This document shows, piece by piece, positions 3,916-52,800 of a stretch of DNA of 64,000 nt (positions are counted from its first letter, which is position 1; each line of letters begins with the position of its first letter). The notes under the pieces are model-generated. The model worked only from the letters and a program-made list of their open reading frames with translations. It did not search any database and was not told the DNA's origin. Made by a program: the position numbers and the translations under genes. Origin of the DNA: Mesostigma viride (lineage: Eukaryota > Streptophyta > Mesostigmatophyceae > Mesostigmatales > Mesostigmataceae); contig RPFO01000305.1 in NCBI GenBank assembly GCA_009746045.1, positions 22,304 to 86,303 of the forward strand, read 5' to 3'.

Positions 3916-6329
3916 ATGCCTCCTGCACAAAGGGTGCGGGGCGGGGGTAGCTCGCTTCTGCGCTGCCTCATGTCCGGCCATTGCAGCCGTATCTCCTTCT
4001 TCCTGATGGGAGTCGTTTTGAGCATCGGCATTGTCTTACTCTACCCTTCCAAACCACAATGTAAGTGGTGCGCGGGCGTACATGTGCTTACTTTTTGCGG
4101 GATGTCTCGCTGTCATCTCTAGAGAATGTGCTGTATAAAAGACATGGACAATTTGCGGTATGGCTCGTACCTGAAACGCCACGTGTCCCCTCTTTCTTTT
4201 ACACCTGGGCAGCACCCGTAGGCTCCTGTATGGAATTCCCGCTTGTGTAATACTTGTCCACGTCAATCGCAAGCCAAGCTTGCCATGTAGCAGTGTCCCT
4301 TACACTTGTTGAAATCAAGCATGTGGCTGCCACCAGTACGCCAGATGTTCCGGTCTTCTCGATATCCATCACAACAATGACATCATTGTGTTTGTGACAT
4401 CAGCGCCTGTCGTGACCGCAATCCTGGCAGCATTTGTTTCGGGAATGCCACATCTATACCTTGTCAACCCACTTTGTTTATTACATCTAGGTGCAAAGAA
4501 AGTCCAGAGGGCGGTCATCCCTAGCTTGTTTCATTTCAATGTCTACTTCCAAACCCTTTATTAGTACTATGTCCTCTTCGATATCCTTTATTTGCACTAT
4601 GTCCTCTTCCACATCCTTTATTTGCACCATGACCTCTTCCACATCCTTTATTTGCACTACGTCCTCTTCCACATCCTTTATTTGCACTACGTCCTCTTCC
4701 ACATCCTTTATTTGCACTACGTCCTCTTCGATACCCTTTATTTGTACTATGTCTACTTCAAAATCCTTAATTTGCACTATGTCCCCGTCCATACCCTTTA
4801 TTTTCTTTATTTGCACTATGTCCTCTTCGATATCCTTTACTTGTACTATGTCCTCTTCCACATCCTTTATTTGCACTATGTCCTCTTCCACATCCTTTAT
4901 TTGCACTATGTCCTCTTCCACATCCTTTATTTGCACTATGTCCTCTTCCACATCCTTTATTTGCACTATGTCCTCTTCCACATCCTTTATTTGCACTATG
5001 TCCTCTTCCACATCCTTTATTTGCACTATGTCCTCTTCCACATCCTTTATTTGCACTATGTCCTCTTCCATATCCTTTATTTGCACTATGTCCTCTTCCA
5101 CATCCTTTATTTGCACTATGTCCTCTTCCGCATCCTTTATTTGCACTATGTCCTCTTCGATACCCTTTATTTGTACTATGTCTACTTCAAAATCCTTAAC
5201 GTTCACTTTTTTATCCTCCTGCGAACGGCATCCACAAAAGGCCATTTCTAGCTTGTCCCCTTTCTAATGCTTCCCCTATATTTCATTCTTTTTTAAAACC
5301 ATGTTTTAGTTTATGTCCAGCGCATGTTTGTTTTTTACATGTTCTGCCTGTATTCCTGTTTCCGCTTCTATTTGGTGCCCTCCCTGCAGATGATGTCCAG
5401 AACGCGGCCTGTCTGACTTTCTTGATTCCTATGTCTATATCCCTATTTCTCCCTATATCTAATTTTATATCTATCGTGCAGACGACGTCCAGCACGCGGT
5501 CGTCCACAAGAACGTCGGCCTCTACGGGACGGGCGAACTTTCCTCCATCGCGCGCCCGCGGAGCGCCGCCCACCACCTCCTGCCCGCTGACGCATCTGGT
5601 GACAGCAGCAAGTACGCCTCAAAATTCGGTTACGACGGATTATCGCCCACCCAGGACGACCCACCCTTGGCCGATGACGCTGACGACTACCGCCCCGAGG
5701 ACGAAGAGGCGTCCTCTCTCCCCGTGTTCAAGGCCCCGCCCTCGGCGGCCAAGCGACCGCGCCGCAAGAAGGGCCAGGAAGGGGCCGAAGTTACCGCGCT
5801 GGAGGCCAGCCGGCGCGTCATCCGCGAGCAGCAGCGGCTGCTGGAGGAGATGCGGTCGAAGCTAGAGAAGCTGCAGGGGGGAGGGGGGGGAGGGGAAGGC
5901 CAGGGGGCGCTACAAGGGGGGGCAGGGAAGGGACAGGGACAGGGGGTAGGGGAGGTGGGCCAGCGGGGGCAGCGTGGCGTTTTGGGCAAGGGTAATGTCG
6001 TGGCGCAGGGCAGGGTCAAGAAACCTCTTGTGGCAGGGGCTAGCAAGAAGGGCGGGCGAGCGAGGGGCGCGCTGATCTGGTCTACCACGTCGGCGACGTC
6101 ATCACGGGGGCAGGCGTCGGAGTACGATGATGTCAGCAGGGGCGGCGCCGTGGGCGGAGGGCAAGTCAACGATGACTATGTGGAGGATGATGTTGACGAC
6201 ACGCCTTCCAGAGGCGGGCTTGCATCGGTCGGTGGGGCCAAGGGTGCGGGGCGGGGCGGCACGCCGACAGCCGTCACGTCTACTAGAGGCACGAAAATAA
6301 CCACGTTCTCCGCATCATTGCCATCATTG

Positions 6330-6365
<36 letters not shown>

Positions 6366-9300
6366 CCGTCGTCATCATTGTCACCGGCAGGTCCGGTCGT
6401 CGACGCCGCACTCCAATGGGAGAGCAAGCCGCTGCCCCCCACCGCAGGGTCCTGGTGGGCACCCTGGTGGTCGCGCGTGACCACTGCCAGCACAGGCACC
6501 AACCCCCGCAACCAGACCCCCTCCCCTTGGAGCCCCAACCGAGGGGCGCCGCAGAACCGGGGATTCACCCGCCCCTCAGCCGAACCCTCGGACGGGCTCC
6601 TCTTCTCGTGGGGCAAGGGTCTGGGCTTCCGAGTGGGCCGAGCCGGCACCGATGAGGAGCACAGCCGGCTGGGGCAGGTGACAGAGGCAGGTTTAGGGGG
6701 TGTCCAGATCGTGGCGGTGGCAGCATCGGCGTTCTCTATGGCCCTCGATGTGCATGGCCGCGTGTGGACGTTTGGTCGGAACGAGTTCTCAGAGCTCGGC
6801 CGGACGACGTCGTCCGATCGAGACGGTCTACCGGCCCTGGTCCAGGGGCCCCTTGCAGACAAGCGGGTGGTGGCGATTGCTGGCGGGAAGCATCACGCGG
6901 TCGTGGCGACCGAGGACGGCGAGGTGTTCACGTGGGGGTCCAACCAGTTTGGCCAGTGTGGCAAGGTCACGCGCCCGACCTGGAACGACCAGGGCGTCGA
7001 GGTGTTCCTGGAGCCGCAGCCAGGGACCCTGGCGGACCCTGGCCCGCTCCGGGGCAAGCGCGTGGTGATCGTGGGCGCGGGGCGCTTCTTCTCGCTGGCA
7101 GTTACGGATGGGGGGGAGGTGTACGGGTGGGGGCGGGTCGGTTTCCTGGGTCAAGGGCTGACCCCAGCCCAGATGGCGGTCCCTCGGCCGGTGTACGTGG
7201 GCACGGGGACGAGGCGGCGGCACGTGGTGGCGGTGGACGCTGGTTTCTCTCATGTGGTTATTCTCACCGCCGACGGCGCCGTGTACACAGTCCTGTCGGG
7301 GGATGATGGGACCGGGAAGGATGACACAGGCCGCAGCGAGGAGGAAAACGGGGTGCTGACAGGGCATGACGCCGACCCCTGGGAGCCCTCGCGCGTGCTG
7401 GGGTTGGAGGACGTGTTCGTGGTCGCGGTGGCGGGGGGCAGGTATCACACGCTCGCCGTCTCCGATGCGGGGGAGGTGTTCAGCTGGGGCTTTGCGACCA
7501 ACGGGGTGCTCGGGCGAGGCGTCTCGGCCGACACGTCCATCGCTGAAGTCCGTCTGGATGCCTTGGACGGGTACCCGCGTCCCCGCGCGGTCGGGGTGGC
7601 CGCGGGGGAGTACTACTCGATGGCGTGGACCGACGATGGGGCCTTGTGGGTGTGGGGCGATAACAGCTACTCGCAGCACGCGAGCGGGATACCTCCACGA
7701 GCGGAGCTCCCTCCTCACATCAGCTTCACGCCACGGAGGGTGGAGGGGACGGGCGGGATGGCACCCGCTCGGGCACGCAAGGAGGGCCCCCCTAAGCTCA
7801 TCCCGGGCCAGATCGGGGTGCTGCTCGTGGCCGCCGGGTACCAATATGGGCTGCTAATCGCCGTCAACTCGATGCAGCACCCGCAACCGCTGCACCTAGC
7901 TGAGGAGGCGCCAGTTGTGAGGTCCTGGTCACGCCCACGGCTGACCCCGCGCCAGCAACAGGCGGTCGTGAAGGAGGAGGAAGCGGAGGTGGTGTCGGAG
8001 GAGGAGACGGCGGATGCCCAGAAGGATGCGACGGGTCAGGGAGGTGGGGGGGCGGGGACAGCGACAGCGCCGCGGCCACGGCCAACGCGGCCCGTGCTAT
8101 CGCCCGCGGAGCAGCGCCCCTGGGGCCCTGGTGGCGTTACATCGCCCAACGCGCTCCTCGTGCGTTCCGCCGCGCCGGATGTTTTCCGCGACGTCCCCTG
8201 GGACGCGGGTTTTGATGCCGCGTTCAAGAACCCGTGCTGGGTCAACGCCACCGGGACACACTGCATGCCGTACTTCCATGTGCTGGGGGAGAGCAAATGT
8301 GGGACGCGGGACTTGTATAACCGGTTGCTGAGGCACCCCGACGTGGGGATGACGTGGGAGTTTGAGCCGAGGTGGTGGGATGACCCGTCGGCACGGGACT
8401 TTGGCAGCTACTTGCTCAACTTCAACGCGGACAGGGACAAGATTTACGCGCGACCCGACAGGGTGGTGTTTGGGGACGCGAGCAGCAGCACATTCTCCTA
8501 CAACGGGGTCGGGCTGAGGGGCGCGCCGTTGGGGCCGGGTCGGCCGTCGCTGGCCCAGGTCATGGCAGCTGTGCAGCCGGGCCTGCGCATGGTGGTAATG
8601 CTGCGCAACCCTCTGGAGAGGTAATTGGTTGTTTCTTAGTTGTAGTTTATTCCGCAGGGCGTGCAGTGTTTGCGGTTGCGCTAGGAGTGGTGAACTGGCG
8701 ATGTTGCGCATCCCTCCGGACAGGCAGGGAGTTACGTTTTTGGTTGTTGGTTGATTCACTTGGGGCTGCGCTGTTGGTTGCTTTACCCACTGTCTGCTGC
8801 TAATCACAAGCACGTAGACCCGCACGTGGATCCGCTATTGAACCCGTTGTCCGCTCACCTATCCACACGGTCCTTCCACTAGGAACCTCAGCACCTGCTC
8901 ATCGCTGCCCTGCTGCGCTCTCTGGATGTGCCCATCCGCCCACACGGTGCGCAAACACCCCCCGACCAAATCCCCACCTCCCCCAGGCTGTACTCCAGCT
9001 TCTACTACTACAACAACTACACGCTGAGCCCGACCATTGGCCCTGATGAATTCCACGCGGCCGTGACGGATGCCATCGCCGACGTGAAGCGCTGCATGGC
9101 CTCCGCCAGCAGTAGCAACAACAACAATAACAACAACAACAATGCAAGGAGCAGGAGGGGCGGGGCTGCCCCTGCCGCAAAGGACAGCGACGATTCCAAT
9201 CATTTTGAATGCGTGACAAAACTGTACAATACGGCCGCACAGCAGCTGGTCAAGGGCATCTACGTGGCCCCACTGAAGAGATGGTACGCATCCTTCCCAC

Positions 9301-9632
9301 GCGACCAGATCATGCTCGTCGAGCATGAGCATTACGTCATGCACACGCGCCGCGTGCTGCGGCAGGTGTTTGAGTTCCTGGGCCTCCAGGCTGAGCTTAA
9401 ACAGGCACAGTGGGACGTGATCCTTGACGACGGTCAGCCCGCGTTCAGCCCCACGCTGCGCAAGGGCAGCGTCGGCTCGGCCGCGCCCATGTATCCGGAC
9501 ACGCGTGCGGCGCTGGAGGCATTCTACAGGCCGTGGAACGAGATGCTGGCCGATGTCACGGGGGACCCCCAGTTTTCATGGGGGGCGGACGTGGCGCCGG
9601 TGGACCGCGACTCGCTCATCTCGCTCGGGTAG
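3916..9632 (+). CDS. Type II membrane RCC1-propeller / carbohydrate sulfotransferase fusion (3 exons)
   Basis: Model: join 3916-4060, 5482-8620, 8987-9632, about 1309 residues. Exon phases fit exactly (1 then 2), and donors GTAAGT and GTAATT are good. The start ATG gives a short basic tail then a hydrophobic segment (residues ~20-43), i.e. a Golgi signal anchor. Next come a coiled coil with basic, Gly- and Ser-rich linkers (poly-Ser ~332-346), an RCC1-like seven-bladed propeller (~420-840, repeated G.V..WG pattern), then a sulfotransferase domain (~925-1309). PAPS-binding motifs are visible: GESKCGT (5' phosphosulfate loop, ~982) and RNPLERLYSS (3' phosphate loop, split by intron 2). The family resembles CHST15-type Golgi enzymes that sulfate glycans, so the likely role is lumenal polysaccharide sulfation. 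The acceptor is unknown. A poly-Asn run (~1138-1148) lies in the catalytic domain. Fusion of RCC1 to a sulfotransferase is unusual. The domains are sure; the link to exon 1 rests on phase and topology. Confidence 0.85.
4497..5230. repeat. 30-bp minisatellite inside intron 1 of the sulfotransferase gene
   Basis: About 24 tandem copies of a 30-bp unit containing TATGTCCTCTTCCACATCC. Because 30 is a multiple of three and the unit lacks stops in several frames, long open frames appear on both strands (252 and 258 codons, repeating ten-residue units such as DVEEDIVQIK on the minus strand). These frames are best read as by-products of the repeat. The variant units near 4732-4775 recur near 5158-5200, so the array seems to contain a larger duplicated block. 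Confidence 0.9.
5381..5417 (+). repeat. Echo of the exon 2 acceptor edge (sulfotransferase gene)
   Basis: The segment CTGCAGATGATGTCCAGAA followed by CGCGG is a diverged copy of the real acceptor and exon start at 5475-5505 (GTGCAGACGACGTCCAGCA then CGCGG). The AG dinucleotides are 92 bases apart. It lies in intron 1, immediately upstream of the used acceptor. Confidence 0.75.
8701..8736 (+). repeat. Echo of the exon 2 donor edge (sulfotransferase gene)
   Basis: ATGTTGCGCATCCCTCCGG ACAGG in intron 2 repeats the exon end ATGCTGCGCAACCCTCTGG AGAGG (8598-8621) 103 bases downstream. The copy covers the codons of the 3' phosphate-binding loop. The GT of the donor has become GC in the copy. Confidence 0.75.
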
Positions 9633-9701
9633 GAGGACGGGGATGGGCCTTGCGAGGCAGCCATTAGAAGAGAAGTGTGGTGACGAGTGGACTGGGGTTC
9701 C

Positions 9702-9925
9702 CTCGTCTCGCTCGGGTAGACCTTTGATGAGGGGAGCTGATGATGCAAGCGCTTGTGTGGATGCAAGCTGGAACTGTGACGGCGGGTGGGCCGCGACTGA
9801 CTCATCTCGCCAGGTAGATGGGGGTTAGCATGGTCGGGACTCCATAGACCGCACGTGGCTCACCTCGCTCAGATTTCTTTTCAAGATGAAGCGAGGGTGA
9901 TGGCATCGGCTCTCCTCACGTTGTT
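9702..9925 (+). repeat. Decayed copies of the sulfotransferase stop-codon edge
   Basis: The end of the gene, CTCATCTCGCTCGGGTAG (9615-9632), recurs as CTCGTCTCGCTCGGGTAG (9702-9719), CTCATCTCGCCAGGTAG (9801-9817) and a weaker CTCACCTCGCTCAGA (9859-9873). Upstream bases (GACCGCGACT-like) are also shared. Spacing is 87, 99 and 58 bases. The copies decay with distance from the gene. Confidence 0.8.
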
Positions 9926-11025: not shown

Positions 11026-11060
11026 TCTGTCGAGAAAAATTAAATTAAATTAAATTATAA

Positions 11061-11083
11061 CATGTCTCCGTTGGGAGATCATG
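11061..11083 (-). other. LINE 3'-terminal stem-loop (copy A)
   Basis: In element sense: CATG, an unpaired A, TCTCC, loop CAAC, GGAGA, CATG. It sits just before the TTTAA-type tail. Copies B (27366-27388) and C (46296-46318) have CCTCC/GGAGG instead, so the closing pair changed T-A to C-G while pairing stayed intact. Such stem-loops are recognised by the RT in some LINE families (for example eel UnaL2). Confidence 0.8.
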
Positions 11084-11171
11084 TAGCACATATTCCAGGT
11101 TGGATGGGTGGTGTGGAGGAAGCCGCGTAATCGAACTAACCTAACTTCTAGTCTAGAAAAGCCTATCTACG

Positions 11172-11945
11172 CTACTCATCAAAACGGCTCCTCCGTTTGG
11201 GGGGAGGCGGCTTGCCCACAGGGGCTGGCGTGTGCGCCTTGACAATCTTCTTCCACCGCGTCTTGTCCTGCATGGCAGTCCAAAGACGGGAGAGAGAGTG
11301 GATGCGGTACTCAAACTGGGCTGGGACCACTAGGTCGTCCAGCAACATCTGGGTATAGGTCATGGCATGTTTCCCTACCTTTTTAGGAATGTTCTTGGGG
11401 CCAGGCCAGGTCAAAATGTGCCGCCCCGGTTGGCCGAGCCGCTGGGGACCGGCCAGACCAAGGGCGGTGTCGACCTGGCTGGTGCGAGCAAGATGTCCTA
11501 CAAATGCTATCCTACGCTGTCTAATCTCGTCCGAAATACGCGGCATACCGTGATACAAAGACTCTAAGGACCTACGCTGAGAAAACCCGACATTCAGGAC
11601 CTGTCGGAGCATCCGGGTTACCGTGCCGTCTAGCTTGGCTGCCAGTGTTGCCGTGAGTGTCCATGCCTCGGCGCCATACGTGAGCACCGTGAGGACGAGG
11701 ACCTTGAAGAGCATGCGCTTGCGGTGCTCGTCCAGGCCCTTGGAGCGCCAGTAGGTGTTGAGCGAACGGAGCTTGGCCCAGGAAAGGCCGATGCGGGTGT
11801 CCACATCGTCGGCAGTGTCCGGAAGCCAACTCCCCAACAGCTTGAAGCGGTCGCGGAGTGGGACCTCCGTCCCGTCTAGCAGGCGCGGCAGCGGGGGGCG
11901 ACTGGAGGCCCCAATCACCATCGCCTCAGTTTTGACACTATAGAC
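11172..11945 (-). pseudogene. LINE copy A: RT C-terminal remnant
   Basis: About 250 codons are open and match the C-terminal half of the RT ORF in the copies at 27.4 and 46.4 kb: the FKLLGSWLPDT element, the thumb region with LTVLTYGAEAWTL, and the end region with IAFVGHLARTSQVD. The catalytic palm (FVDYIKAFD, YADD) is absent because of the deletion junction at about 11945, where the tract AGTGTCAAAACTGAG is preserved across the junction. Confidence 0.9.
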
Positions 11946-12402
11946 ACACGATGCTCAATGCAGAATGCGACTAGCTCCTCTACCCGGCAGCTATGGTCGT
12001 CATCTAGCAATGTGCGGGTGTTAAAAGTGGCAAGGGCCAAGGATGCCTGCTGGCCCACCAGGGGAGGACGACGATGGGTGATGGGGGTGGATGCGGCGGG
12101 GGTGGAGGTGGGGGTGAAACGGAGGGGGGAAGGGAAGCGGTAGAAATAGTGCTTTTCATCGCATTTATTTTGTCCTGCAAGCGTAGGATGCGAGCCTGCC
12201 GCTTGCTCGGGGTATTCGGGGTTGGGGCTGATTGCACAACGCCGAGGCGTAGGTAATCTAGCAAACGTTGGGTTTTACGAATCTGACATTTGACAGATGA
12301 GGTTGTGGCCCGAAATACCGGCACCACCATGGCTTTCACCCGACGGTTAGGTCGAGGCATGGTAGTGGAACGGGACTGTTTAGAGGCTGTCTCCGAAGCC
12401 TG

Positions 12403-13616
12403 TTAGCCGCGAGCCGACGAGGAAGGTTGTCTACCTACGGGCACCACCGGAGGCAGCACCTTTCTGCTAGACACCTCACGAGACTCCGCTCCGGGGGTGT
12501 TAATCTGAACACCTTTAAGCTGCTTTCCCTCAAAGAATGCGGCAAAGGAGCCATCCTGAAGCAGACGCAGCTTAATGCGCTTACCCGGGGCCTCTTGCTC
12601 CTTGGTTGCCTGGACGATGGGGCTGTTCCACACCGCGCTCCTCGCCTTCAGTTGAGCCGTCGTGTAGTCCTCGTCGAGGCTGAACTCACCGCGCTGGAGC
12701 AGACGACGTGCTCCCAGAACGAGGCGTTTGTCGTGCATGGAGGCCATGGTGACGACGACCAGGCCCATAGGGCCTGGCAGCCGAATGGCACGTTCAATGG
12801 CAACACGGTTCTGGAGCTGCAACCTTCCCAGAAACGCTGGGCCGCGCAGCACCTCGGTAAGTGAGTGTGCTGTCTCATGGGCCTCGCCTTTCGGGAAGTT
12901 CTTGATTACCATATTGCGTTGGCGTTGCTGCACTGCATTCTGGGTGACCGCAGCGGTAGCGGCAGACTTGGCCGCCTGTTGAACAATGGTGGTCAACTGC
13001 TTGCCGGTAACGTCGGCAAACGTGGTCGTTTTGGCGGGGGCTGCCATGGCTTTCTTCAGCTCCAGCAATTGTGCTGTCGCAGCTGCAGACGCCTCTGTCA
13101 GGACCTTAATTTCGCCCTGCACGGTCGTAAAAGACTGTGCAAGGTTCTGCAGTTGCCCGGTAATATCGGACGCGGGGGCTGGCCCGGCGATGGCTGTCGC
13201 CGGCAGCTCGACAAGCGCAGGGCAGCACGAAATAAGACAGGCAAGCCGACGCTGGTCCGGCTCAAACCCACCCCACTCATCCTCAGGAGCGGCCATAATC
13301 TTGCCTGTGGTAGGGTGGCGAACCGAGGCGTCGTTGTCTCTGCGGAGCTTCAGCACGCTGGTTACGGCGGCGTCGTCGTAGGCGAGTAAGGTAGCGATGT
13401 TGGTCAGGCTCAAACGCTGTTCGGGAATGTAGAATGCTGAGGGAATGGCTTCCGGCAAGGAGGTTTCAGTATCTATCGGAGTTGCTTCCGAAGTCTTGGG
13501 CCGCTTTTGGCGGCGTTCTCGGCGGCGACATGGCTGTCGTTGGCGATTTTGTTTGCAGCAAGCTGGGCATCGGTAGACTCGGCGACAGAAGCTGAAGACG
13601 ATGCGGGGGCCTCCAT
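12403..13616 (-). CDS. LINE ORF1 protein (coiled coil plus RRM-like nucleic acid-binding domain)
   Basis: A minus-strand frame of nearly 400 codons. The middle (AQSFTTVQGEIKVLTEASAA and after) is heptad-like and suggests coiled-coil trimerisation. It is followed by QRNMVIKNFPKG, the usual first strand of an L1-type ORF1p RRM, then AIRLPG and VVVTMASMHDKRLVLGARR as expected for the rest of that domain. The likely start is the ATG at 13616, giving a 5' part in a different frame from the main body, so one frameshift lies near 13490-13510. The family role is binding element RNA in a ribonucleoprotein particle. Identification is by motif pattern only. Confidence 0.75.
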
Positions 13617-14045
13617 ATCTACGTTTAATCACACCTAGACGAGGGCAGGGGGCGCAGGCACACGGTTCACGTGCGTGGTGCCGCCATATCGTGCAGAAAA
13701 TAGCGATATCTGCTGGGCAGGCCGCTGGCGATAACTTGCGAAATCCTGGGCGATGGCTGCCAAAAATTAGATCAGCGTGTTCGTCATCAAAAAGCGAGTC
13801 TGTTGCAATTTACCCGACCAAATTTCACGCCCGGAGTCAAAAGTTATGAGCATTCTCGGCATCCATAGCTCGGCACACCGTAAACCGGAATTTTGCGAAA
13901 CACTCTGGGCTTCCACATGAGCCCAGATGGTCTGTCGAGAAGCCATGCCCTAGCCCTTGTATAGCCATGATGATCTTCCTCCCCCGTGCCAGGATCCCCT
14001 TCGCTGGGTTGAACCTGAGACAGCATGGTGGTGCAGGTGCCCTTG

Positions 14046-16293: not shown

Positions 16294-19200
16294 CTACTGC
16301 ATCTGGCAGTCGCTCACGTTGTCGGCAAAGTGCTGCATGAGCGTCTCGCGCAGCGACTCCACCTGCTGGCTCATGCGACCCAGCGCGTCGTAGCTATTAT
16401 CAGTGCAGCTGACGCGGATATTGTGGCTGAAGCTTCCCTCCATGTCACCCCCCTTGCCATCCACTCCCCCTCCACCCCCATCCCCATCCGCGTTCCCGAG
16501 CAAACTGCCTCCCCCCTCCTCACCCGCCGCGATCCCCCGCGATAGCCAGCTCGACGGCGTGTGGGGCGACGCCGGTTGCTGCCCTGCCCCCATGCCCAGC
16601 GCCGACGGCCTCCGGCCCTTGACCCCCTTATCCCCCCAGCCATGCCCACTGCCTTTCTTCACCGTGGGCGAGTTGAGGTAGTCGCCCAGCACGGCGACCT
16701 CACTGTGGACCAGCAGCGAGGGGTCCAGCGTGCGGCCCTCGAGCTTTGCCTGGATGAGCCCCGTCAGCCGGCCCAGCTCGGCTGCGCAGGCCTCCATGCG
16801 GGCCTCCGAGGAGAGCACGGCCGCGTCCGACTCGCCCATCTGGCGCTCCGCGGCCTCCAGGCGGTGGAGCAGGTCGCTGGGGGTGAGGGGAGCGGGGAAT
16901 GGGAGGGAATGAAACGAGGAACCGAAGAGGAAATAAATGGAATTGGGGTCGATTCATAGAGATGCATGGGTGGGAGAAATGCATGGCATTAAGATGAAGG
17001 AATCGCAAGGGATGCGATCGATGGAATGGCCAAGGGGGAGGAAGGCAAGGGGGGGAATGGACAAGGGAAGGAACGGCAAGTGGTGGTGGTGGTAGTGGTG
17101 GGGGGGGCGAACAAGGGAGGGAAATGCCAAGTGGGTGAGAGAGAGGCGAGGAGTCAGTGGCAAGCGGCCGCAAGTACATGCAGTGAATTGTGTGATGGCT
17201 TGCAAGAGAGGAAAGGGCAGACCGCTGGAGGGAAAAACAACAATAGTCATTGATAAGAGCAGCACGCGGCGACTCCCCACCCGCCACATGTCTTGGTGAT
17301 GCTAGGGGCACCAGCAGTAGCAGTGGTAGCAGACAAGGGAGTAGCAGTGGTGGTAGTAGTTACTGTGCGCAGGGTAACGGTAGTGATAATAGTAGGTGTA
17401 AGTACCACAATCCGCAGCAACAAACACCTCCCCCCGCAGAGTCGCCCCCATGTACTGTTGCGCAATCTCCCGCACGGCCACCCCGTCCCCCCCCCCCCCC
17501 CTCCAGCCCACGTATCGGTCCTACTCGACTCACTGTTGCGCAATCTCCCGCACGACTCATTGTTGCGCAATCTCCCGCACGGCCACCTTGTCCCTCGCCC
17601 CCTCCCCCTGTTGCATCGCATGCCAGCCCACGCATCGGTCCTACTCGACTCACTGTTGCGCCATCTCCCGCACGGCCACCTTGTCCCTCGCCCCCTCCCC
17701 CTGTTGCATCGCATACCAGCCCACGTATCGGTCCTACTCGACTCACTGTTTCGCAATCTCCCGCACGGCCACCTTGTCCCTCGCCCCCTCCCCCTGTTGC
17801 ATCGCATGCCAGCCCACGTATCGGTCCTACTCGACTCACTGTTGCGCAATCTCCCGCACGGCCACCTTGTCCCTCGCCCCCTCCCCCCCTGTTGCATCGC
17901 ATGCCAGCCCACGTATCGGTCCTACTCGACTCACTGCTGCGCCATCTCCAGCACGGCCGCCTCGTCCCGCAGCCGCGCATTCTCCCCTTCCAGCGAAGCC
18001 GCCAGAGAGGCGAGCCGCTCCACTTCGGCGTTCAGCCGCTCTGCCTCTGCATTTGATCGGTCCACCTCCGCCTGGAGCCGTTCCACCGCCTCTGCGTTCG
18101 CCTCCGCTACCTTGCCCCCATCATCCGTCACGCCCCCATCTGGCCCATCCACCGAGGCACGCGAAGGAGTCAAGGGATCCACGGTAGCCTCCCCCTTGCT
18201 CCTCAGCGCTCGGAGCTCGTGCTGCTTGGACGCGGCCTCGGCCGTCGCCGTGGCCGCCCGCCCCTTGAGCTCCGCCACCTGTCGCGCGTGCTCCGCCAGC
18301 TGGCGGGCCAGCTCGGCCCGCTCGAGGGCCAACGCGGCCTGCTCCTCCCGCAACCGTTCCAGCTCGGTGCTGGCGTGCACGATCGCCTGCTCCCCTTGCG
18401 CCACCTGTGCCTCCGCCGCCTCCACTCGCTCCGCCAGCTGTTCCCTCTCCTCTTGAACCTCCTCATACTTATGCTTCACCTCCTCATGCTCATGTTTCAG
18501 CTCCTCGTGCTCGCGCGTCAAGCTGTCATGGGCCCGCTTCAACTCATCATGAGCCTGTTTCAACCCCGCCCCCTCCCCACCCGCCCCCCCTTGCCCCTGG
18601 CCCCCTCCAGCGCCCGCACCTCCTCCTCCAACAGCCATGCCCGGTCCCTCACCTCCCGCAACGTCAACAGCTCCGCTTCCGTCTCCTTGGCTGCCTGCGT
18701 GAGCTGCCGCACGCTAGCCTCCAGCTCCCGTACCCTTGCCTCCGTTGTCTCCACCTGCCCCCCCAGTCGGCTTGTGCGCCCTTTCTCTGCGGCCAGCGCC
18801 TCGCGCGCAAGCCTCAACTCGGCATCCTTCTCAAACGATGCCTCCTTCAGCCTCATCAGCTCCTCCTCCATCTCCCGGGCAGCGTCACGGGAGCTTGCCC
18901 TCACGCTGACATCAGGCAACGGGATCTTGCTACCTTCCCTAACGCCAGCACCCGCACCCCGCTCCCGTTCCCTCTCGGCGCTGCCCCCTTGCAGCCCTAC
19001 CGTGCCCACCCCTAGCACCCCTCCTTGGACTCCGCCCCCTTGAGCCCCCCCGTTGGCCCGCAGTTGAGCCCTCAAGGCCTCATTCTCGGCCCGCAGCGCA
19101 TCCTCTGTCGCCCGCAACGCCTCCCCTTCCTTCCCCTGTCCCTTGCCCGCCTGCCCGTCCCTCGCCTGCCCCTTGCTCGCCTCCAGCTCCTTGATCTGTG

Positions 19201-34900: not shown

Positions 34901-35604
34901 GCAAACCCTATGGGCTTGCGGTACTGTTGCATAAGGTTAATCCTGCAGACGCGTTCCCTACGGCTTAGCAAGGCGGCCCCTTAGGTTTCCGATCCTGTGG
35001 AGGGAGGAGATGTTCCCATGACCAAGTCGCACCCTCGGCAGTGAGAGGCATGTCCCAGTCGTGAAGTATGAAACCAGGAGGGCTTTGATTGGCAGTGTCA
35101 GAGGATTTCGTCAGATGGGCTCACATGGACCACCATGCCTGGGCAACATGGGTGGCAATCATGAGCGCCTGGTGTGTTGCATGACTTTGGGTCAGAACTC
35201 CTGCGAAAACTGCGGCATGGTGTCAGTACAAATGGAGAGGGCCAACGGGTCACCTCGTCACTAGGATGAGGTCTGACTGTATGATATCTGCAGTAGAAAG
35301 CCATGGAGTGGAACGTTGGAATTTCCCACCACTCAATTTGTATCGACTCTGTCATGTAGGAAGTGTGTGGCGTAGCACTGCAAGGGAATAGTATGTGTCT
35401 GTATGTGAATGTGCATGGAGGTACGCCACTGACTATGAATTAATGAATCAAACTCGTGCTCCCGCTGGGGAGTCACGGAGCATTAACCCCCATGGATGGA
35501 CGGATGGGAACATGCAATCCTACGGGTCTTTTCTATCTAGCTACAGACAATCCTTCTGGTCTCTATCTAGTGTGTGCCAGACCCTAGGGGTCTTGCCTAG
35601 CTAG
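34901..35604. other. Intergenic, no gene seen
   Basis: No coding region is recognisable between the 95-bp array and the LINE relic; only weak short similarities to the array unit are seen near 34900-34990. Confidence 0.4.
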
Positions 35605-39555: not shown

Positions 39556-42323
39556 ATGAACGGGGCGGGAATCGCGACGTATGTGGTGTGCATCTTCGCC
39601 CTGGTCTTCTGCGCGGTGGTGTCCGTGTGGTACACCAAATTCCGGTCGAAGAAGGTGGTAACTGCCGATGACTTCGTAACGGCTCGAGGCACAGCGAGTA
39701 CATGGTACATTGGATGGTCCTTCTTCGCGACGGCGGTCGGCTCGTGGATTATCGTAGGCCCCGCCTCGTATGCCCCCTGGGCCGGCATCATCGGCGTTGT
39801 GTTCTACGCCGTCGCGACCGGTATCCCCGTGCTGCTGATTGCCGCGCTGGGAGCCGTCATCCAGCGTCGCCACCCGCACATCGTCTCCCTGAGCGACTTC
39901 ATCGGCAAGCGGTGGGGCTACTCTGCGCAGACGGGGGTCGTCATCCTGACCCTGTTCAACATGGGCGTCGGCATGACAGCCGAGTACACGACCATCGGCG
40001 CGCTGTTCAAGGACTTCGTCGGCGGGAAGGCGACCCCGATCATCATCATCGTCGGCGTCCTCACGATGGCCTACTCGGCGTACGGCGGCCTCGCGGTCTC
40101 GATCTTCACCGACCAGATTCAGGCCATCGCCTCGCTCCTCCTCTTGTTCATCCTCGTCCTGTACGTGGCCATCACCCTGCCCGGCGAGAAGCTCGGGAAA
40201 CTCCCCGAGTACCTCGAGGGCACGAACGAAGTCGGCTACTCGTCCATGTTTGTGATGCCCGCGTCACTGTGCGCGGCAACTATCTTTAGCGAGATGTTCT
40301 GGCAGCGCGTGTGGGCGTCGCAGGATGCGCATGCGCTCAAGTGGGGCTCCATCATTGGCTGCACCGCGCTCATCATCATGACCTTTTTGCTCGGGTTTGG
40401 CGGGTTCCTCGCCGCGTGGGCCGGGTTCATCAGCTGGGAGACGACCAACCCGAATCTGTACCTTTTCCAAGTCTTCAACCAAGAGCGCGACATGGACGGC
40501 AACGCGCGCGTGAGCAGCTGGGTGGGCGTGCTCACCATGCTCATGGCAGTGATCATGAACGAGAGCGCGCTCGACAGCATCCAGAATGGGCTGGTGGCGG
40601 CGGTCTCGGGCCAGTTCCTTTCTAAGTACCACGTCAACTGGTCGCGAGCGGTGTGCGTGCTGTTCAACATCCCGCTCATGATCATCGGGACGCAGCAGAC
40701 GCTCAAGGTGGGTGGGTCTCTGTACGGGTGAGCGGTGGGTACAGTGACCTATGCTCCTCTCTTGGTCATGGGAACGCAGCATACACTCAGGGTCGGTGTG
40801 GAGGTATTGCTGGGGGTATTGAATACACAGGTTTACTATGTTTACTATGTAGCCATGTAACTTGGTATGGAATGTATTCCTACTGTTATCATGCTATGTT
40901 ATGGCTAGTTGTGACGGAAAGCTATTTAAAAACAAATTCCTGCCACATTTTCGTGCACGCCACCCCAGTGCGCGTGTGGGTCCCTTGTCACCAAGCCTCA
41001 CGCATGCCCGCTGCCTCTCACAATTTGCCCCCACCCCTTGCCCTCACCCCTTTTGTTGCCCTCCTCCCTCGCGCAGGTGCTGAGCCTGTTCCTCATCACC
41101 AACATGCTGACCTCGTGCGCGGCCATCCCCGTCGCGTTCGCCCTCTACAAGGGCCGCGGCCATGAGTATATCACGGGCGGGGGCACCATCTTCTCCTTCT
41201 TCTGCGGCTTCATCTGCGTGTCCGCGTACGGCATCTCGCAGACGGAGGGGGACTTCTGGGACGGGTACGTGCTGCGCCCTGCCCCACGCTCCGCTCGCTC
41301 GTATGTTCTTTTTTGTGCTGGCACGGGTCCACGCGTATGTAGCCTGAAGGATATGGCATGCTCGTGACTGTCATAGCCAACGCCCGTCACGGGTACGCTC
41401 CCCTCTCGCCTCCTGTCCTTTTGCACCCACGCCGGTCACGGGTACGCTCCCCTCTCGCCTCCTGTCCTTTTGCACCCGGTGGGATGTATTCATGTCGTGT
41501 GCGTCGCGGACAACCGAGGGCACTTCCGGGATGGGTATGTCCTGTGCTCTACTGCTGAAGCACCGCCGCCATCTTATACGTGCTTGCCCCCCCCTTACGT
41601 GCCACCCTCCTCTCCCGCACCGTGAACCTCGCATGGTACGCGAATGGACAAAACTGACCTGGTTTTTCGCTGCATGCCCTTTCGTGGTCACCCATCCACC
41701 CCCCTGTTTCTCCCCAAACAACATCATATAAATGGCAATATTTTGTTGCCGCCTGAACCTGGCCTGGTATGCCAGCTGCTAAAGCTGACCACCGCGGTTT
41801 CCTTGATGCCCTTCTCTGCAATCGATTGCCCGCCCGCCCGCTCCCCTTGGCCCCGCCCCCCCCCCCCCCCACACGCAGCATGAACCTGGCCTGGTACGCG
41901 AACGGCTACATGTGGGACTACTTCCTCATCGCCTTCTGCACCTCGCTCGGCGGCATGTTCGTCTGGGCGGCCTTCCTGCTGCTGCTGGGGCTGGTCAGCC
42001 CGCGCGCCGGCGACTACATGAAGTGCCCCTGGCGGGAGGACCTGCTGGGGGCGACCAGCCGAGACGTGGGCAAGACGGGTGCGGAGGCGGCGGAGTTGAA
42101 GGCGCTGGAGGCAGAGGGCAAGGGGTTCAGCGCGGACAGCAATGGCGATGTCAAGGGCAACGGCGTGGATGCCAGCGATTTGTATGTGGAGACGCAAACG
42201 AATGGGAATGGGGTCACCAGCAAGGGGCAGGAGCCTGGCGTCTCGTTTGCAGGTGCGGAGAATGGTGCTGGGGACGGCATGAAGGAGGGTGTGGAGCTGC
42301 CCCTGTACCCCACGCAGATGTGA
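39556..42323 (+). CDS. Sodium:solute symporter, DUR3/urea-transporter-like (3 exons)
   Basis: Model: join 39556-40707, 41077-41264, 41879-42323, about 594 residues; phases 0 and 2 fit. The first ATG (39556) is followed directly by a hydrophobic helix (GIATYVVCIFALVFCAVVSV) and then about a dozen or more membrane segments. Family marks include TADDFVTARGT after helix 1, SWIIVGPASYAPWAG, LSDFIGKRWGY, FNMGVGMTAEYTT and AYSAYGGLAVSIFTDQIQ, matching the SSS family branch of fungal and plant DUR3 high-affinity urea/polyamine symporters. The plasma membrane is the likely site and a cation gradient the driving force. The last exon adds a final helix pair and a ~100-residue hydrophilic Gly/Asn/Glu-rich tail, probably cytosolic. 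The substrate is not proven by sequence. Confidence 0.9.
40766..40802 (+). repeat. Echo of exon 1 donor edge (transporter)
   Basis: GTCATGGGAACGCAGCATAC then ACTCAGGGTCGGTG copies the exon end ATCATCGGGACGCAGCAGAC then GCTCAAGGTGGGTG (40681-40714) 84 bases downstream, inside intron 1. The GT at the splice position is kept. Confidence 0.8.
41355..41786 (+). repeat. Echoes of exon 2 donor and exon 3 acceptor edges (transporter intron 2)
   Basis: The donor edge GACTTCTGGGACGGGTACGT (41251-41270) has a copy CACTTCCGGGATGGGTATGT (41520-41539) and two related CACGGGTACGCTCCCCTCTC units 51 bases apart (near 41387 and 41438). The acceptor edge GCAGCATGAACCTGGCCTGG then TACGCGAACGG (41875-41905) has copies GCACCGTGAACCTCGCATGG then TACGCGAATGG (41617-41647) and CCGCCTGAACCTGGCCTGG then TATGCCAGC (41750-41777). 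One intron therefore has copies of both of its exon edges. Confidence 0.85.
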
Positions 42324-46264: not shown

Positions 46265-46273
46265 GTGAGCAGG

Positions 46274-49155
46274 TTAAAATTAAATTAAATTATAACATGC
46301 CTCCGTGGGGAGGTCATGGAGCACATATTTCATGATGGATGGAGGAAGCCGCGTGATCGAACTGTCCTAACTCTATCTAGAAAATCCTTCCTGCACTACT
46401 CATCAAAACGCCTCCTCCGCTGGGGGGGAGGTGGCTTGCCCACAGGGTCGGGCGTGTGCGCCTTGACAATCTTCTTCCACCGCGTCTTGTCCTGCATGGC
46501 AGTCCAAAGACGGGAGAGAGAGTGGATGCGGTGCTCAAACTGGGCTGGGACCACTAGGTCGTCCAGCAACATCTGAACGTAGTTGGTGACAGGTTTCCCT
46601 ACCCTTTTGGGAATGTCCGCGGGGCCAGGCCAGGTCAGAATGTGCCGCCCTGGCTGTCCAAGCCGCTGGGGGCCGGCCAGACCAAGGGTGGTGTCGACCT
46701 GGCTGGTGCGGGCAAGGTGTCCTACAAATGCTATCCTACGCTGCCTAATCTCGTCCGAAACACGAGGCATGCCATGATACAAAGACTCTGATGACGGACG
46801 CTCGGAAAAACCTACATTAAGGACCTGCCGGAGCATCCTGTAAACTGTGCCGTCGAGCCGAGCTGCCAGTTTGGGTGGGAGGGTCCACGCCTCGGCGCCA
46901 TACGTGAGCACCGTGAGGACGAGGACCTTGAAGAGCATGCGCTTGCGGTGCCCGTCCAGGCCCTTGGAGCGCCAGTAGGGTGTGAGCGAACGGAGCTTGG
47001 CCCAGGCAAGGCCGATGCGGGTGTCCACATCGTTGGCGGTGTCAGGAAGCCAGCTCCCCAACAGCTTGAAGCGGTCGCGGAACGGGACCTCCGTCCCGTC
47101 GAGCAGGCGCGGCAGCGGTGGTTTACTGGATGCCCCTATCACCATCGCCTCAGTTTTGACACTAATCTCCAGCCCCACCGCCCGTGCCTCCAGGCCCAGG
47201 CAGTCCAGCCAGGTCTGAATGTGCTCGGGGCTCTCGATGAGGGTGGTATCATCCGCATAAATCAGGTCGGCAAGGCGGTAACCAGGTCTAACCCCGCCGT
47301 GCTCTTTCACGTTAAGGATGTCCAAGCCTGGCTCGAACCCCTTAATTAAGAGCAGTAAAGCGCGCACGTGCCCGGCGCATGACGTGATCCACGACAATAA
47401 TGAACAGGTATGGGGACAGGACACAACCTTGCCACACCCCGTGGTGAAGGGGGAATGGTGGAGTGGTGCCCTCCGCAGTCCGCACTACTGCCTGTGAGCC
47501 CTCATACAGACGGCGAATGGCAGCAATAAACGCAGGTGGTACCCGATCCAGAGCTAGGATGGCCCAAAGAGCCTCCCAGAGAACCGTGTCAAAGGCCTTG
47601 ATATAGTCAACAAAAATGAAGACCAGCGGCAAACTGTCAGGGGGAAGTCGACGCACCTCCTCCATCAACCGGCGCGCGACAAACACAGCCATGACAGTGT
47701 TACGACCACGACGGAAACCCATCTGAGACTCACCCAGGTGTGGGTCCAGCGCGGCGCGGAGCCTGTGCAGCATCATGCGCATGAAGACCTTCAGCGCGGC
47801 GCTCTGGAGGCAGACACCCCGGTAGTTACCGGGGTCAGCAGCAGAGTCCTTCTTGTACAGCATGACGCGGATGGCCGTCTGCCACTCAGCAGGCGGAGGC
47901 TCGTCAGAGAGCAGGACACGGTTACAGAACGCCAGCAGAAGATCCCGAACCGCCAGATCAGGGGTCTTCAGCAGCTCAGCAGAAAGGTGGTCGGCACCGA
48001 CCGCCGCATCGTACCGCAGGCGAGCAAGGGCGCCGTCCAATTCCTTCAAAGTGAAGGGGGGGACGACGTCGTCAGTGGCAAGGCAGCCCTCCTGCAAGGC
48101 GGGGACTTGGTAGTCCGCGGCCGAGGAGGGGGGCGCTGGCGGCGGCGGGGGTCCGGCGACCCCGAGGCGGGCGGCCGTCTCGGGGTGAAGCGGCGGGGGG
48201 GGGCGCGAGCCCCACCGGTCAAGGAAACATTGTGGGCCAACCAGCGGTCAAGGCTGACCGGCGCCGTGCCGTCCCCCGTGTGCTCCACCGGGGTGCGCTG
48301 CCGCCGGCCGCCGAGCCGGTCGAGGTGGTACCACATGTCCTTGCCCTGGTTGCGAGCCTGGCAGGCCTTGGCATCCGCGATGCACTGGGCCGCCTCCGCG
48401 TCCTGAGCGTGCTCGTAGGCCTCCACAAGGGCGGCCTTGAGCAATGGTTTCTGCAGCGGGTCCCGGTTACGCTTGAGGCGGTGCCGGGCGGCCAAGACCT
48501 TGGGGTCCTGGCGGTAGAGCGGGCCGGGGCGATGGCGGGGCATGACCGGCAGGTGCCGGGCCGCCAGCAACGGGGCACGGGCCGCAAAGCCCGCAAAAAT
48601 GGCTGCGTTGGGGGCACCATTGTCCAGCTCGTCGACGTCCGCCCGGGCGTCCAGGGCCGACAGGTACTCCTGACGGCACTGGTTCCGCTCGTGCTCGGCG
48701 TCCGTCCAGTCCTCAGGATCTCCCTTGACCGGACGTAGAGCAGACCAGTCAGGGCGGACCACTGGGGCGCGGCGCGCGGGGACGTGGAACCGGAGCCGAA
48801 GGGTCGCGCGCACCAACCGGTGGTCAGAGCACACCGTCGGCGTGTCAAACACTCGGGTGTCCAGGACCGAGGTGCACCTGGACTGCCGTACCACCACGTA
48901 GTCCAAACAGGCCTGACGGCCGTTAGGGCCACAAAAAGTGACCAAGTCCTGTGAGGGACGTTGGAAGTGGCAGTTGACAGCAACCATCCCGCTATCCCGC
49001 AAAAAGGCAGAAAACAGGGGAGTGTTGTCGTTAGCAGTAGTGTCAGCAGGCGCAAAGCGGCTGCCAGCAGTGCCCACGGGGAGCGTGGCATTGGCGTCGA
49101 GCAGCATAACCAAAAAGTGGCGGGCCGGGGTGACCCTCTCAAGGTCATGCAAGGA
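46274..49155 (-). mobile_element. LINE copy C: ORF2 with endonuclease C-terminus and full RT, 5' truncated
   Basis: The most complete copy. Its 3' end has an AATTT/TTTAA tail (46274-46290) and the stem-loop (46296-46318). A 9-bp direct repeat GTGAGCAGG at 46265-46273 and 49156-49164 is a likely target-site duplication. The right part encodes the C-terminal half of an APE-type endonuclease (LLDANATLP, LDYVVV, SDHRLV with the catalytic Asp-His). Then come a linker, RT motifs FVDYIKAFD, GVWQGCVLSPYLF, YADD and ISVKTEAM, and the C-terminal GHLART region. Two 4-bp indels break the frame: a TTAA duplication near 47343-47350 and loss of a GATC-like tetramer near 48103 relative to the relic at 1.08 kb. 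The copy is dead but young. Confidence 0.93.
46296..46318 (-). other. LINE 3'-terminal stem-loop (copy C)
   Basis: Same sequence as in copy B: CATG, unpaired A, CCTCC, CCAC loop, GGAGG, CATG in element sense, next to the pentamer tail. Confidence 0.8.
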
Positions 49156-49164
49156 GTGAGCAGG

Positions 49165-49851
49165 TGTGTGGGTAATATTACTGGTGCACAGTGGTGGGCG
49201 TCCCCAACATCTACTGCTCCAATTTTGGTACTTTTGAAATTCCATGCCTGGAGCGCAAAGTTTGCAATATATGTGCCGTTTGTAGCTCTAGCTCTATAAT
49301 AACCTGACCAACCCCGCATTCCTCAAAGTACTTAGCACTTGTTGCCTATTCTCATTATGCGAATCACATGATTAGGATGTGCTTCATGATTGCTATTGCT
49401 CGAGATTCAATTAAGAATGATTGACATCAATAAATGATGAACCAAATAAACCAAATTAGGCCACTTGACAAGTTCATGATCCATTTAAATTGTACAATTA
49501 AGCGATTAATTAATTCATAAATCATACATTACATGGGATACCCCCGTCGACGAGCTAGTGGTACGTACAATGAAACATTTGAGTTTGTAACATGTCTCCA
49601 TGGATATATACATGTATGCTGGACCTCGCGCATCTCAGCCCTCTAAGAAATGTTATTTGAACTCAGGTCTAGATCTAAATATATACATGATCTGGATAAT
49701 ATTATACACTTCCTTAAAAGAGCATGAATCGAGCTTTACAATTCAGGACAAGGAACTCGTTTGCAAATCACGGCTGAAAGGCAAGTGCTCACAACGAAGC
49801 ACGTGCTCTCAAGGCTGTCCACCTCGTCCAACCAAGCCCGGGCGAGCTGGC
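49165..49851. other. AT-rich intergenic stretch, no gene seen
   Basis: Between the LINE target repeat and the DDE gene end. It becomes AT-rich from about 49320 with no coding region; the 3' UTR of the gene at 49852-53215 (minus) should begin at the right end. Confidence 0.4.
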
Positions 49852-52800
49852 CTACTCAACAGGTCTCTTCTTGGCCAAGTTCGTGAGCCGTTTCTCGACG
49901 TCTGTCGGAATGGTCAAGATGGCCTGGCGATTGTTAGCTGGGTTGACAACAATGGTGTGTTCGAACCCCGCGTCCATGCACAGGTAGCAATTGACCAAGT
50001 TTGGCTGTTCAGCTTGCGCATCGGCGTCCATTTTGAACATCGTCGCCATACCCGGAAATCTGTCCCAGTAGCGCACCCCCACCACCCATTGTCCCTTACG
50101 GAACAACTCCCTATCGACCTTGCCGTTTCTGTCGGCCACTCGCCTCACGAAAGTAGCGGCCACCTGATAAGGCTCCTGCAAGACTTCCGCTAGCCAATAT
50201 GGATGATCTGGATCGTGGGACTCATCACCAGAGTAGGACTCGACGGCAAAAATGTCTCGCAGCTTCAGTCTCCTTCCCATCATCGTCCTCTCTGCCTGTA
50301 GTCTGTTCAGTCGCGTCCCTGCGTGCCCCCCTTGTCCGTTTGGGTTCCTTTGCACTGGCTCCCCCAGTTTGTGGAGCTTCATCCGAGCACCTCCCACATT
50401 CCAGCCGTCCATGTCGGTCCACTCCTTTCGACAATCCCACCACCTTTCCTCGGCGCACGCACCGCCACAATAGCAGGAATACTGGCGCAGCATTAAGCGC
50501 GTCACATTCGACTTGTCCATGCGCCACCAGTGCGCCTTCTTCACTCCTTTGATTTCGCCGCGCCCTGGGCTGTAAGGAAGCACCTGCGCGTCGAAGACAA
50601 GATTTGCACAAGGGAAAGTTGAAGTTACGAGACCATCGAGCTAGTTGTGTTTTATTAAGCACTCCTGATCGCCAGGACTCCAAGAACGCCCTAGAAACGA
50701 CGGCCGGCGTAACTATTCCCTGAACGAGGACTGTACACTTAATTACCTCGGGGAACTCGAAGAAGTTACGCCTGGTCGTTGTGGTCCCGCCCACCGCCCC
50801 CGACGCCAGATTCTCCACCAACTGGGCGGCCGTCTGTTTGTCCTGGTTCTCTTCCCTGATGTGCCACCTCCTCAACATGCACTTCACAGTCCCACCAGCT
50901 CCATCCACCTCCCCCTTTCCGTGCTGCTCCCCAAAGTAATTCCACTCAAATGACTCCAGGTGCGGATCCTCCGTCAGCAGCCGGGCCACTTCCGCGATCA
51001 CATTCCTTGACTTGAACTGCATGGAGCAATTGTCCGACCACCCAATGAAGCGCTTCACCTCTACCCCTTCTGACCGTAGTGTCGCCAGGATTTTGAGGAT
51101 AGCAAAACGGAGGGCCCGCCCGTCCCTTTTCATTCCGCCCTGTCCGATGAAGTGAAACTCCCTTCTCACGACCTTTCCCGACGCTGGATCCAAGTAGCGC
51201 ACGATCCAGGGCATAAGGACGAATGTGACTGGATGCCAATACTGTGCTTGGAGATTGTGATAGGTGTAAGACTGGTAGTTCTCGGCGTAATCTGTGTGGC
51301 ATACAAGGTCCCCCACCCGCATCCTTGAGAGACATTCCTTGGAGGCGTCCGCTTGCCACCACGCGTTGAAGCAATGCTGGATGAAGTCCGGCCACTTGTC
51401 CACAATTGCCTCCTTTAGCTCCGTTGGTGTGGACTTGACGTCGACTTGCGTCAATCGCTGCCCACCAGCCTTTGCGATCTCGTCACAGTCGTCCTGCATA
51501 TGCGCAGTGTGCACATACAGAAAAGACATCAACTTCGACCCACCAATGACCTGTAGAAAGAAAAAAGACAGGACCTCAGGAAAAATTGAAAAAGAAACGC
51601 CTTGGGGCGCAACCACTCCACTAAAAATTACCTCTGGCCCAAGAACTTCAGGAAACATTGCAAAAGAAACGCCTTGGGGCGCAACCACTCCACTAAAAAT
51701 TACCTCTGGCCCAAGAACCGCACCCGGCGGCACATCCTGCATCTCGTATCTGGTCCATGAAATCAGGTGGTTGGAAGCCTCCTCCCGTTCGCATAACATG
51801 AAGTTCCGAATTCCACACTTGGGAGCCAGGCAAGTGCCCAACACACAAGCCTTACGCCGGATCGAGCAAACCCCCAACTCCTCGCCCAGGTCATGATCGG
51901 GCACCCCTTCCTCGTCGTCCAGCACCCTCCCATGCATGGGCAGATCCTCAAGTTCGCCCTGAAAAGGCTGAACCTGCGGCCGCGACGACCCCACAGACGA
52001 CCTCGAACCTCCCCCCTCCCTCATCCCCTCCACCTCACAAGTAAACTTGTTCACCCACTCTGTCGTGTGAGTGGCTTTGAAAATGGAACATGTGGGCACG
52101 GACGACCCCACGTCGAGCTGGCTACCATGATCGCACGCGTGGCATTCAGGTCCGCACTCGCATCTGGCATGAAAAGTTGCACGAAATTTGGCCAACCCCC
52201 CAACCATGGACTGCATGGTAGTGTGGTGCTGGCATGCGCACAAGTTCCGCATTTTCCACCGCCCCTTGACGCATGCGGGCATATGCTTGCAAAAAGTAGT
52301 GTATCCCACATGAACTGTGCTCTTCTGATTCGTGCGTAGCATTGACATCCCTGCCTCCGTCTCCAAAATCACCTGATTTCCCCCCCTCACACCCTCCTCT
52401 CCCTCCCCCCCCCCCCCCCCCCCCCCCCCCTCCCTACTGTCCATCCGCCGCGGTGGCTTCAACTCCGGATGGCGGGAAATGAACACTTCGTAAATCTTCG
52501 ACTTGGAGACAGTATAGTAGCGCGCACCCTCCGAAAACGCTAGTGTATGTTTGTAATCCTTTCTGGTCCATTCACAATGAACATCCTTCATGTTCGGAGA
52601 CGCCCGCGTCAAGTTATCATCCCTCCAGCACGCTTGTATCAGGGCAATGACTTCCGTCGGAAGCTCGTCTTTCCTCCTCCTCCTCTCTGGCGCACTCATC
52701 AAAAGGTCGTCCTCCCCTTCTTCCATTCCATCCCTGTGACCCCGAACAGTTGCGACAAAGCGCCTGTCAATCCCGAACGCGCGCTCCACAATCCTGTCCG

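Follow-up and report, generated by a model that had tools for sequence, protein, structure and literature searches.

Copies of exon edges in introns and 3′ flanks of Mesostigma viride as probable units of local tandem duplication

In the tandem genomic duplication model of intron gain, as reviewed in PMC3443670, a duplicated AGGT supplies both ends of a new intron. Here we describe a related pattern in a window of 64,000 nucleotides of Mesostigma viride (GenBank assembly GCA_009746045.1, contig RPFO01000305.1, positions 22,304 to 86,303, forward strand; coordinates below are those of the window unless another contig is named), in which exon bases at donor, acceptor and stop edges recur as copies in the adjoining intron or 3′ flank. 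Each such copy probably arose by a small local tandem duplication across the edge between coding and non-coding DNA and is the unit left without function; duplication of this kind would be general, with edges hit roughly two to four times more often than expected from random placement. The likeness to the AGGT model, as presented in that review, lies in a short tandem duplication that contains splice-site sequence and leaves the protein unchanged. However, in the model the new intron arises within an exon, whereas here existing introns and 3′ flanks gain units of one edge. AGGT sites serving as donor and acceptor of a new intron were not found in the 400–700 bp searched; copies of donors lie on the donor side and copies of acceptors on the acceptor side.

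According to a survey covering 31 genomes, tandem repeats with units of 1–50 bp become denser towards intron ends, particularly in Chlamydomonas reinhardtii and Volvox carteri (PMC3887541). The M. viride pattern shares with these green algae a high density of tandem repeats near intron–exon junctions. In the survey, however, units are confined to 1–50 bp and positions are binned, and the parts of it available to us do not mention exon, splice-site or stop content. Duplication at exon edges may contribute to the intron-end repeats of these two species. The initial annotation of the window, made from the letters alone, knew of no described system with this pattern, which is too strong because intron-end repeats had been reported for these two green algae. 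As for the exon-edge duplication pattern itself, no description was recognised in the open-access literature, most subscription papers lying outside that search.

Small tandem duplications of the same size class arise from fill-in at staggered breaks by Pol alpha-primase/CST (PMC8355091), although those were nuclease-induced and the available parts of that paper mention no link to exon edges. Introners (PMC9860276) are mobile intron-generating elements and, like the duplications described here, change introns in many genes. Unlike introners, which copy themselves into many genes, the copies in M. viride are local and gene-specific: cross-gene edge probes matched in 0 of 308 comparisons among the window genes and in 41 of 3442 (1.2%) among the chaperonin genes introduced below, and within these two gene sets an introner or other transposable element was rejected as the source.

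Copies of exon edges in the window and in other genes

The assembly comprises 439.9 Mb in 2243 contigs. Six gene models in the window were rebuilt by hand from frame continuity and GT–AG ends: an RCC1–sulfotransferase gene (3 exons), a TPR protein gene (7), an SSF symporter gene (3), a coiled-coil gene (3), a DDE-like gene, from which only the first two introns are used, and an HPPD-like gene with one exon. At every edge, the terminal 36 exon bases were aligned to at most 400 bp of adjoining non-coding DNA, and a match required p ≤ 0.004 over 500 dinucleotide shuffles and a score of at least 13. Significant copies are present at 14 of the 33 donor, acceptor and stop edges, where about 0.1 would be expected at that threshold. 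Donors (8/14), acceptors (4/14) and stops (2/5; the TPR stop edge was placed 2 nt past TGA) are all affected, in agreement with the initial annotation, which had counted about 15 of 30 intron ends and two gene 3′ ends and had named the same three edge types. Start edges gave no match in the same test (0/5, one of them, in the HPPD-like gene, being an open-frame end only and that of the coiled-coil gene uncertain).

The controls exclude chance or composition as the cause. Besides the shuffles and the cross-gene probes, reverse-complement probes gave no match at a score of at least 13 (0/38), and probes displaced into the exon quickly lost their matches: 7/33, 2/31 and 2/29 at 12, 24 and 36 nt, 0/137 at 48–160 nt and 1/74 at 200–400 nt. 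Matching of the splice consensus is likewise excluded, the probes consisting of exon bases only. The displaced probes also bear on the proposal that the copies are remnants of tandemly duplicated whole exons. The copied pieces are indeed ends of protein-coding exons, but only the edge-proximal part is represented: probes 48–160 nt inside window exons and probes displaced by 36–130 nt in the chaperonin genes had no match. Stop edges do not fit either. No tandem duplicate of an exon with both splice sites was found, as probes fail beyond about 48 nt with the single exception at 200–400 nt, and this origin is extremely improbable.

One control points in the opposite direction: 36-nt probes from intron interiors, at least 30 nt from an edge, found copies in 14–28% of cases per direction at a score of at least 13; these probes were unfiltered and include low-complexity sequence and short-period arrays. 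Exon probes searched against downstream exon matched in 12.5% of cases at that score, none reaching 20. Duplications are not confined to edges, because interior and exon probes find copies too.

Replication genes were chosen by a Pfam PF00118 search, blind to repeats, and comprise six of the loci found (CCT2, CCT7, CCT4, CCT3, CCT5 and Cpn60, with 46 introns used for edges) and a pair of CCT8 copies. The best PDB match of the Cpn60 gene is Chaperonin 60B1 (5cdi), a plastid protein of Chlamydomonas; together with the GC content at third codon positions given below, this match would point to a green alga. Edges were set by our own spliced protein-to-DNA alignment with PDB relatives and additional protein stretches; for the last CCT7 intron, beside a dubious 6-bp exon, the donor was kept and the acceptor excluded. 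Copies occur at 14 of 91 edges in the six genes (donors 10/46, acceptors 4/45) and at 1 of 16 in CCT8, so that 15 of the 107 splice edges of the seven genes carry one. Reverse-complement probes matched once in 91, probes displaced by 12, 24, 36, 48 and 60 nt matched in 5/91, 2/91, 0/91, 0/80 and 0/75 cases, and none matched anywhere between 36 and 130 nt. The stops of five chaperonin genes carried no copy (0/5).

The arrays in these genes are again head-to-tail, for instance 48 bp repeated 10 times at CCT3 donor 7 and a unit of 31 exon and 9 intron nucleotides at CCT8 donor 3, its exon part identical. A TBL1-like gene (contig C1, 1.045–1.048 Mb) has copies at 4 of 10 splice edges, with recent arrays at 3 of 5 donors (units of 40, 46 and 61 bp, the 40-bp unit at donor 5 running head-to-tail 12 times), one acceptor-edge copy and a 16-nt copy near its stop. 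This gene is kept outside the replication count because it was found through its arrays. Edge units outside the window span 40–102 bp. The proposal of the initial annotation that local tandem duplication recurs here is supported by several copies at the same edges and by recurrence in unrelated genes of the genome.

Excess at edges and competing explanations

Two features of the pattern follow partly from how it is seen. That the copies lie on the non-coding side is nearly tautological because a unit that keeps the reading frame is called exon by definition, and the earlier claim that copies never occur in exons loses its force for the same reason. Edge duplications also stay detectable longer than interior ones because the exon partner is conserved, and part of the apparent edge enrichment is a visibility effect of these conserved anchors. 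A null model was therefore simulated in which duplications fall at random and the exon copy is fully conserved. In the chaperonin genes (53 introns), 12 of 26 detected events straddle an edge against 22.4% simulated (P=0.0063), and in the window (12 introns) 8 of 15 against 12.5% (P=0.00017). Run on shuffled sets, the event detector produced 0.0 false straddling matches per set and no more than 0.2 false interior ones. The event table omits the last CCT7 intron, the DDE-like introns, all stops and low-complexity or short-period matches. An edge excess of about 2–4-fold persists after visibility is modelled, based on few events. The recurrence at exon boundaries claimed at the outset holds to this extent, but the process also acts in intron interiors, which hold about half of all events (14/26 in chaperonin introns, 7/15 in the window), and intergenic DNA holds many local duplications.

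The excess has to be weighed against a pure null of random tandem duplication, survival of the reading frame and visibility of conserved exons, with zero edge preference. This account draws on the interior and intergenic duplications, on the straddling that visibility already yields in simulation and on the Tandem Repeats Finder (TRF) rows of the six chaperonin genes: of the 11 with a period of at least 30 (two of them being one array), 3 straddle an edge, not clearly above chance. It is nevertheless rather unlikely, as the observed straddling exceeds a simulation that includes visibility, and placement at uniform positions would give a longer exon part than is observed. Recent TRF arrays alone are no proof of an edge excess. 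When 200 kb of random genome was scanned for coding potential around TRF arrays, 8 of 22 arrays of period 35–130 were coding-flanked against 6.0 expected, and the other period classes fell below expectation (2/25, 9/55 and 0/6 against 6.7, 14.0 and 1.8); the model used had a sensitivity of only 22% at the chosen cut-off, too low for these counts to be informative.

Several points weigh against a preference for edges, the TRF rows among them. The excess rests on 41 events in total, which are not fully independent because some introns hold several, and its window half comes from the set in which the pattern was first noticed; the edge rate is lower in the chaperonins (14%) than in the window (42%). 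The simulation presumes a constant rate, the observed unit sizes and equal tolerance of all placements. Splice edges are predictions, made by frame continuity in the window and by homology in the chaperonins. Gapped alignments extend the exon part to +76 at SSF acceptor 2, −69 at coiled-coil donor 2 and −56 at SSF donor 2, and because they reach further at these three window edges, the limit of 50 nt described next is not sharp. Finally, the 18 donors with copies and the 48 without are alike in G content, GC skew, GC of the intron start and exon end, and intron length.

The part of the exon that is copied is short. With the same detector applied to data and simulation (smallest unit at least 80 bp, TBL1 excluded), it measures 15–47 nt at 16 edges, with a mean of 29.1 and no value above 50; in the simulation the mean is 43.3 and 32% of values exceed 50 (P=0.0012 and 0.0020). 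An earlier list picked by hand gave P values of 0.0014 and 0.0033, with smaller exon parts entered for SSF acceptor 2 and coiled-coil donor 2 and with SSF donor 2 omitted. The short exon part could mean that long exonic copies are selected against because they would compete in splicing, or that the lesion has a short reach. Lesions coupled to splicing or transcription, namely R-loops at G-rich donors or free exon 3′ ends that prime DNA synthesis, repaired with tandem duplication, would agree with exon parts of about 15–47 nt in units of 84–163 bp and with the higher rate at donors than at acceptors in both gene sets. Stop edges, which are not spliced, are nevertheless affected in the window and in the TBL1-like gene, though not in the chaperonins, and over the first 40 intron nucleotides donors that have copies resemble those that have none in G content and GC skew. 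An origin in such lesions is unlikely, and G-rich donors were rejected as the cause.

Template switching at homology boundaries, in which repair from a diverged homologue begins in an exon and slips back where homology ends, would account for donor, acceptor and stop edges alike and for the short exon part. The assembly does contain two near-identical CCT8 copies, on contigs C1641 and C887, which are probably haplotypes. Over 3.2 kb aligned, however, their exons are 99.6% and their introns 97.0% identical (the intron part comprising 2.5 kb aligned and another 72 gap columns), and because the introns differ by only 3.0%, against 0.4% in exons, homology is not lost at edges; we consider template switching quite improbable. 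At donor 3, the one array-bearing donor compared, self-matches suggest two units in each copy. One CCT8 intron is about 3 kb longer on C1641 than on C887.

The copies might instead be decoy or alternative splice sites maintained by selection, and many of the nearest ones do retain GT or AG, as the initial annotation had noted. Retention is, however, at the neutral level expected from identity: of 18 donor copies, 13 still have GT where 13.1 would be expected, and of 8 acceptor copies, 4 still have AG where the expectation is 5.2 (DDE-like and TBL1-like genes excluded). Stop codons are copied as well. From their sequence the copies look neutral, with no function indicated, and a role in splicing is very improbable.

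Form, spacing and individual copies

Duplication units were sought between 35 and 200 bp and observed between 40 and 175 bp. They have the form of minisatellites or local tandem duplications, head-to-tail units of about 10–100 bp or slightly more, most clearly in the young cases of the window. At donor 1 of the TPR gene (edge 23918), a 67-bp array at 23904–24148 (plus strand; TRF 3.6 copies, 82%; p=0.002) begins 15 nt inside exon 1. At the 3′ end of the same gene, a 95-bp unit is repeated 7.8 times at 34186–34920 (plus strand; TRF 97%; p=0.002), and its first unit spans the last 26 coding nucleotides, including the stop at 34209–34211. Inside exon 2 of the coiled-coil gene (donor edge 17935) begins a 93-bp array at 17553–17968 (minus strand; TRF 4.5 copies, 95%; p=0.002) in whose units GTGAGT recurs. 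These three arrays, which begin inside exons, bear out the suggestion that the process seeds minisatellites. In old copies the alignment often covers little more than the exon part, with only a few bases of intron, as would be expected with a conserved exon partner, and inspection suggests that they may be decayed units.

In the following, p values are those of the shuffle test and offsets come from alignments reaching 400–700 bp from the edge. The RCC1–sulfotransferase gene (plus strand) has a decayed copy of its exon-2 acceptor edge (5482) at 5385–5413 (offset 92, p=0.002), a copy of the exon-2 donor edge (8620) at 8696–8747 (offset 103, p=0.002) and, behind its stop (9630–9632), three serial copies of the C-terminal codons at 9677–9870, two with the stop (offsets 86, 185 and 240; p=0.002). 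The TPR gene (plus strand) carries three decayed copies of the exon-2 acceptor edge (25480) at 25141–25399 (offsets 109, 211 and 324; p=0.002) and a short copy of the exon-2 donor edge (25573), with 10 exon nucleotides, at 25608–25631 (offset 44), which is weak and alone non-significant (p=0.072). Further downstream lie a copy of its exon-4 acceptor edge (29480) at 29356–29422 (offset 96–99, p=0.002) and three copies of the exon-4 donor edge (29881) at 29945–30287 (offsets 85, 296 and 403; p=0.002). In the SSF gene (plus strand), the exon-1 donor edge (40707) is copied at 40756–40798 (offset 84, p=0.002), the exon-2 donor edge (41264) at 41489–41550 (offset 270–280, p=0.004) and the exon-3 acceptor edge (41879) twice at 41602–41781 (offsets 258 and 127; p=0.002). 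On the minus strand, the exon-1 donor edge (22007) of the coiled-coil gene has decayed copies at 21770–21948 (offsets 105, 155 and 214; p=0.002). A 72-bp duplication at donor 1 of the DDE-like gene (edge 51704; 51576–51718, minus strand; TRF 2.0 copies, 97%; p=0.002) is doubtful because the supposed intron of 153 bp is in frame without a stop, and it could be an in-frame coding repeat; the window count without it is 13/32.

The nearest copy lies 67–109 bp away at 12 of 14 edges (a weak 43-bp match at coiled-coil donor 1 being ignored), which agrees with the spacing given by the initial annotation. Its claim that copies decay with distance stands in part. Among seven window edges, identity falls clearly with distance at three (rho −0.80 to −0.90, n=5 each) and weakly at three (rho −0.35 to −0.50, n=3, 3 and 7), and it rises at TPR donor 1 (rho +1.0, n=3); this set omits the weak 43-bp match and the multi-copy edges coiled-coil donor 2, TPR donor 2 and TPR acceptor 3.

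In the TPR, SSF and sulfotransferase models, the spliced exons stay in frame across recognisable motifs. In single frames, Pfam found matches to RCC1 and SSF, whereas a single TPR repeat stayed below its cut-off; GC at third codon positions (GC3) in the rebuilt models is 0.82. The gene at 3916–9632 joins an RCC1-type propeller to a carboxy-terminal sulfotransferase-like part; Pfam returned RCC1-type families only, and we assume the motif of the C-terminal part to be that of a sulfotransferase. In the coiled-coil gene the frame changes within a poly-G run at about 18563–18600, probably through an assembly indel.

The window holds other repeats. A 71-bp satellite of about 95 units (83%) occupies 57274–63970, and a 301-bp piece of satellite has 100% identical matches at at least 40 places in the genome, many on contigs of about 30 kb. 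At 53353–53933 the palindrome-like element AACGCCGGCCGGCGCAACT is repeated at an irregular spacing of about 74–153 bp. Reverse-transcriptase remains resembling long interspersed nuclear elements (LINEs) lie at 27457–29079, 46396–49322, 11172–13809 and 1–2500; RVT_1 matched in two of the four, and the other two were read by eye from shared sequence. One of these remnants is within TPR intron 3, adjoining a 94-bp array at 29074–29338.

A proposed route of intron growth from exon edges

Small local tandem duplication across edges, the reading we prefer, would proceed as follows. Duplications would arise throughout the non-coding DNA examined. Where one straddles an edge, one full edge would stay in place and the other unit would fall into the intron or 3′ flank; such duplications would survive because one complete edge remains and the protein is unaltered. 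The surplus unit would then decay neutrally, its exon partner serving as a still-readable anchor. Repeated rounds would move older copies outward, lengthen introns and in some cases expand into minisatellites. Edges are hit 2–4 times more often than under the modelled random placement, with an exon part mostly of 15–47 nt, perhaps because edges are favoured for the initiating lesion or because selection on splicing removes long exon parts. The joining chemistry may be fill-in at staggered breaks followed by end joining, with staggered breaks more frequent at exon edges. In a plant study with paired nicks, small tandem duplications reportedly arose from staggered breaks.

Intron lengthening is usually traced to transposons. 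The copies at exon edges make a second route visible, one with layers that can be put in order; every edge serves as a conserved reference for judging the age and direction of duplications. More tentatively, boundaries between exons and non-coding DNA might be recurrent mutational sources that reach about 15–50 nt into the exon, so that introns grow from their ends and leave readable growth layers. If the edge preference is genome-wide, gene structure would define a mutational hotspot, and breakage at exon edges would become a question that can be settled by counting.

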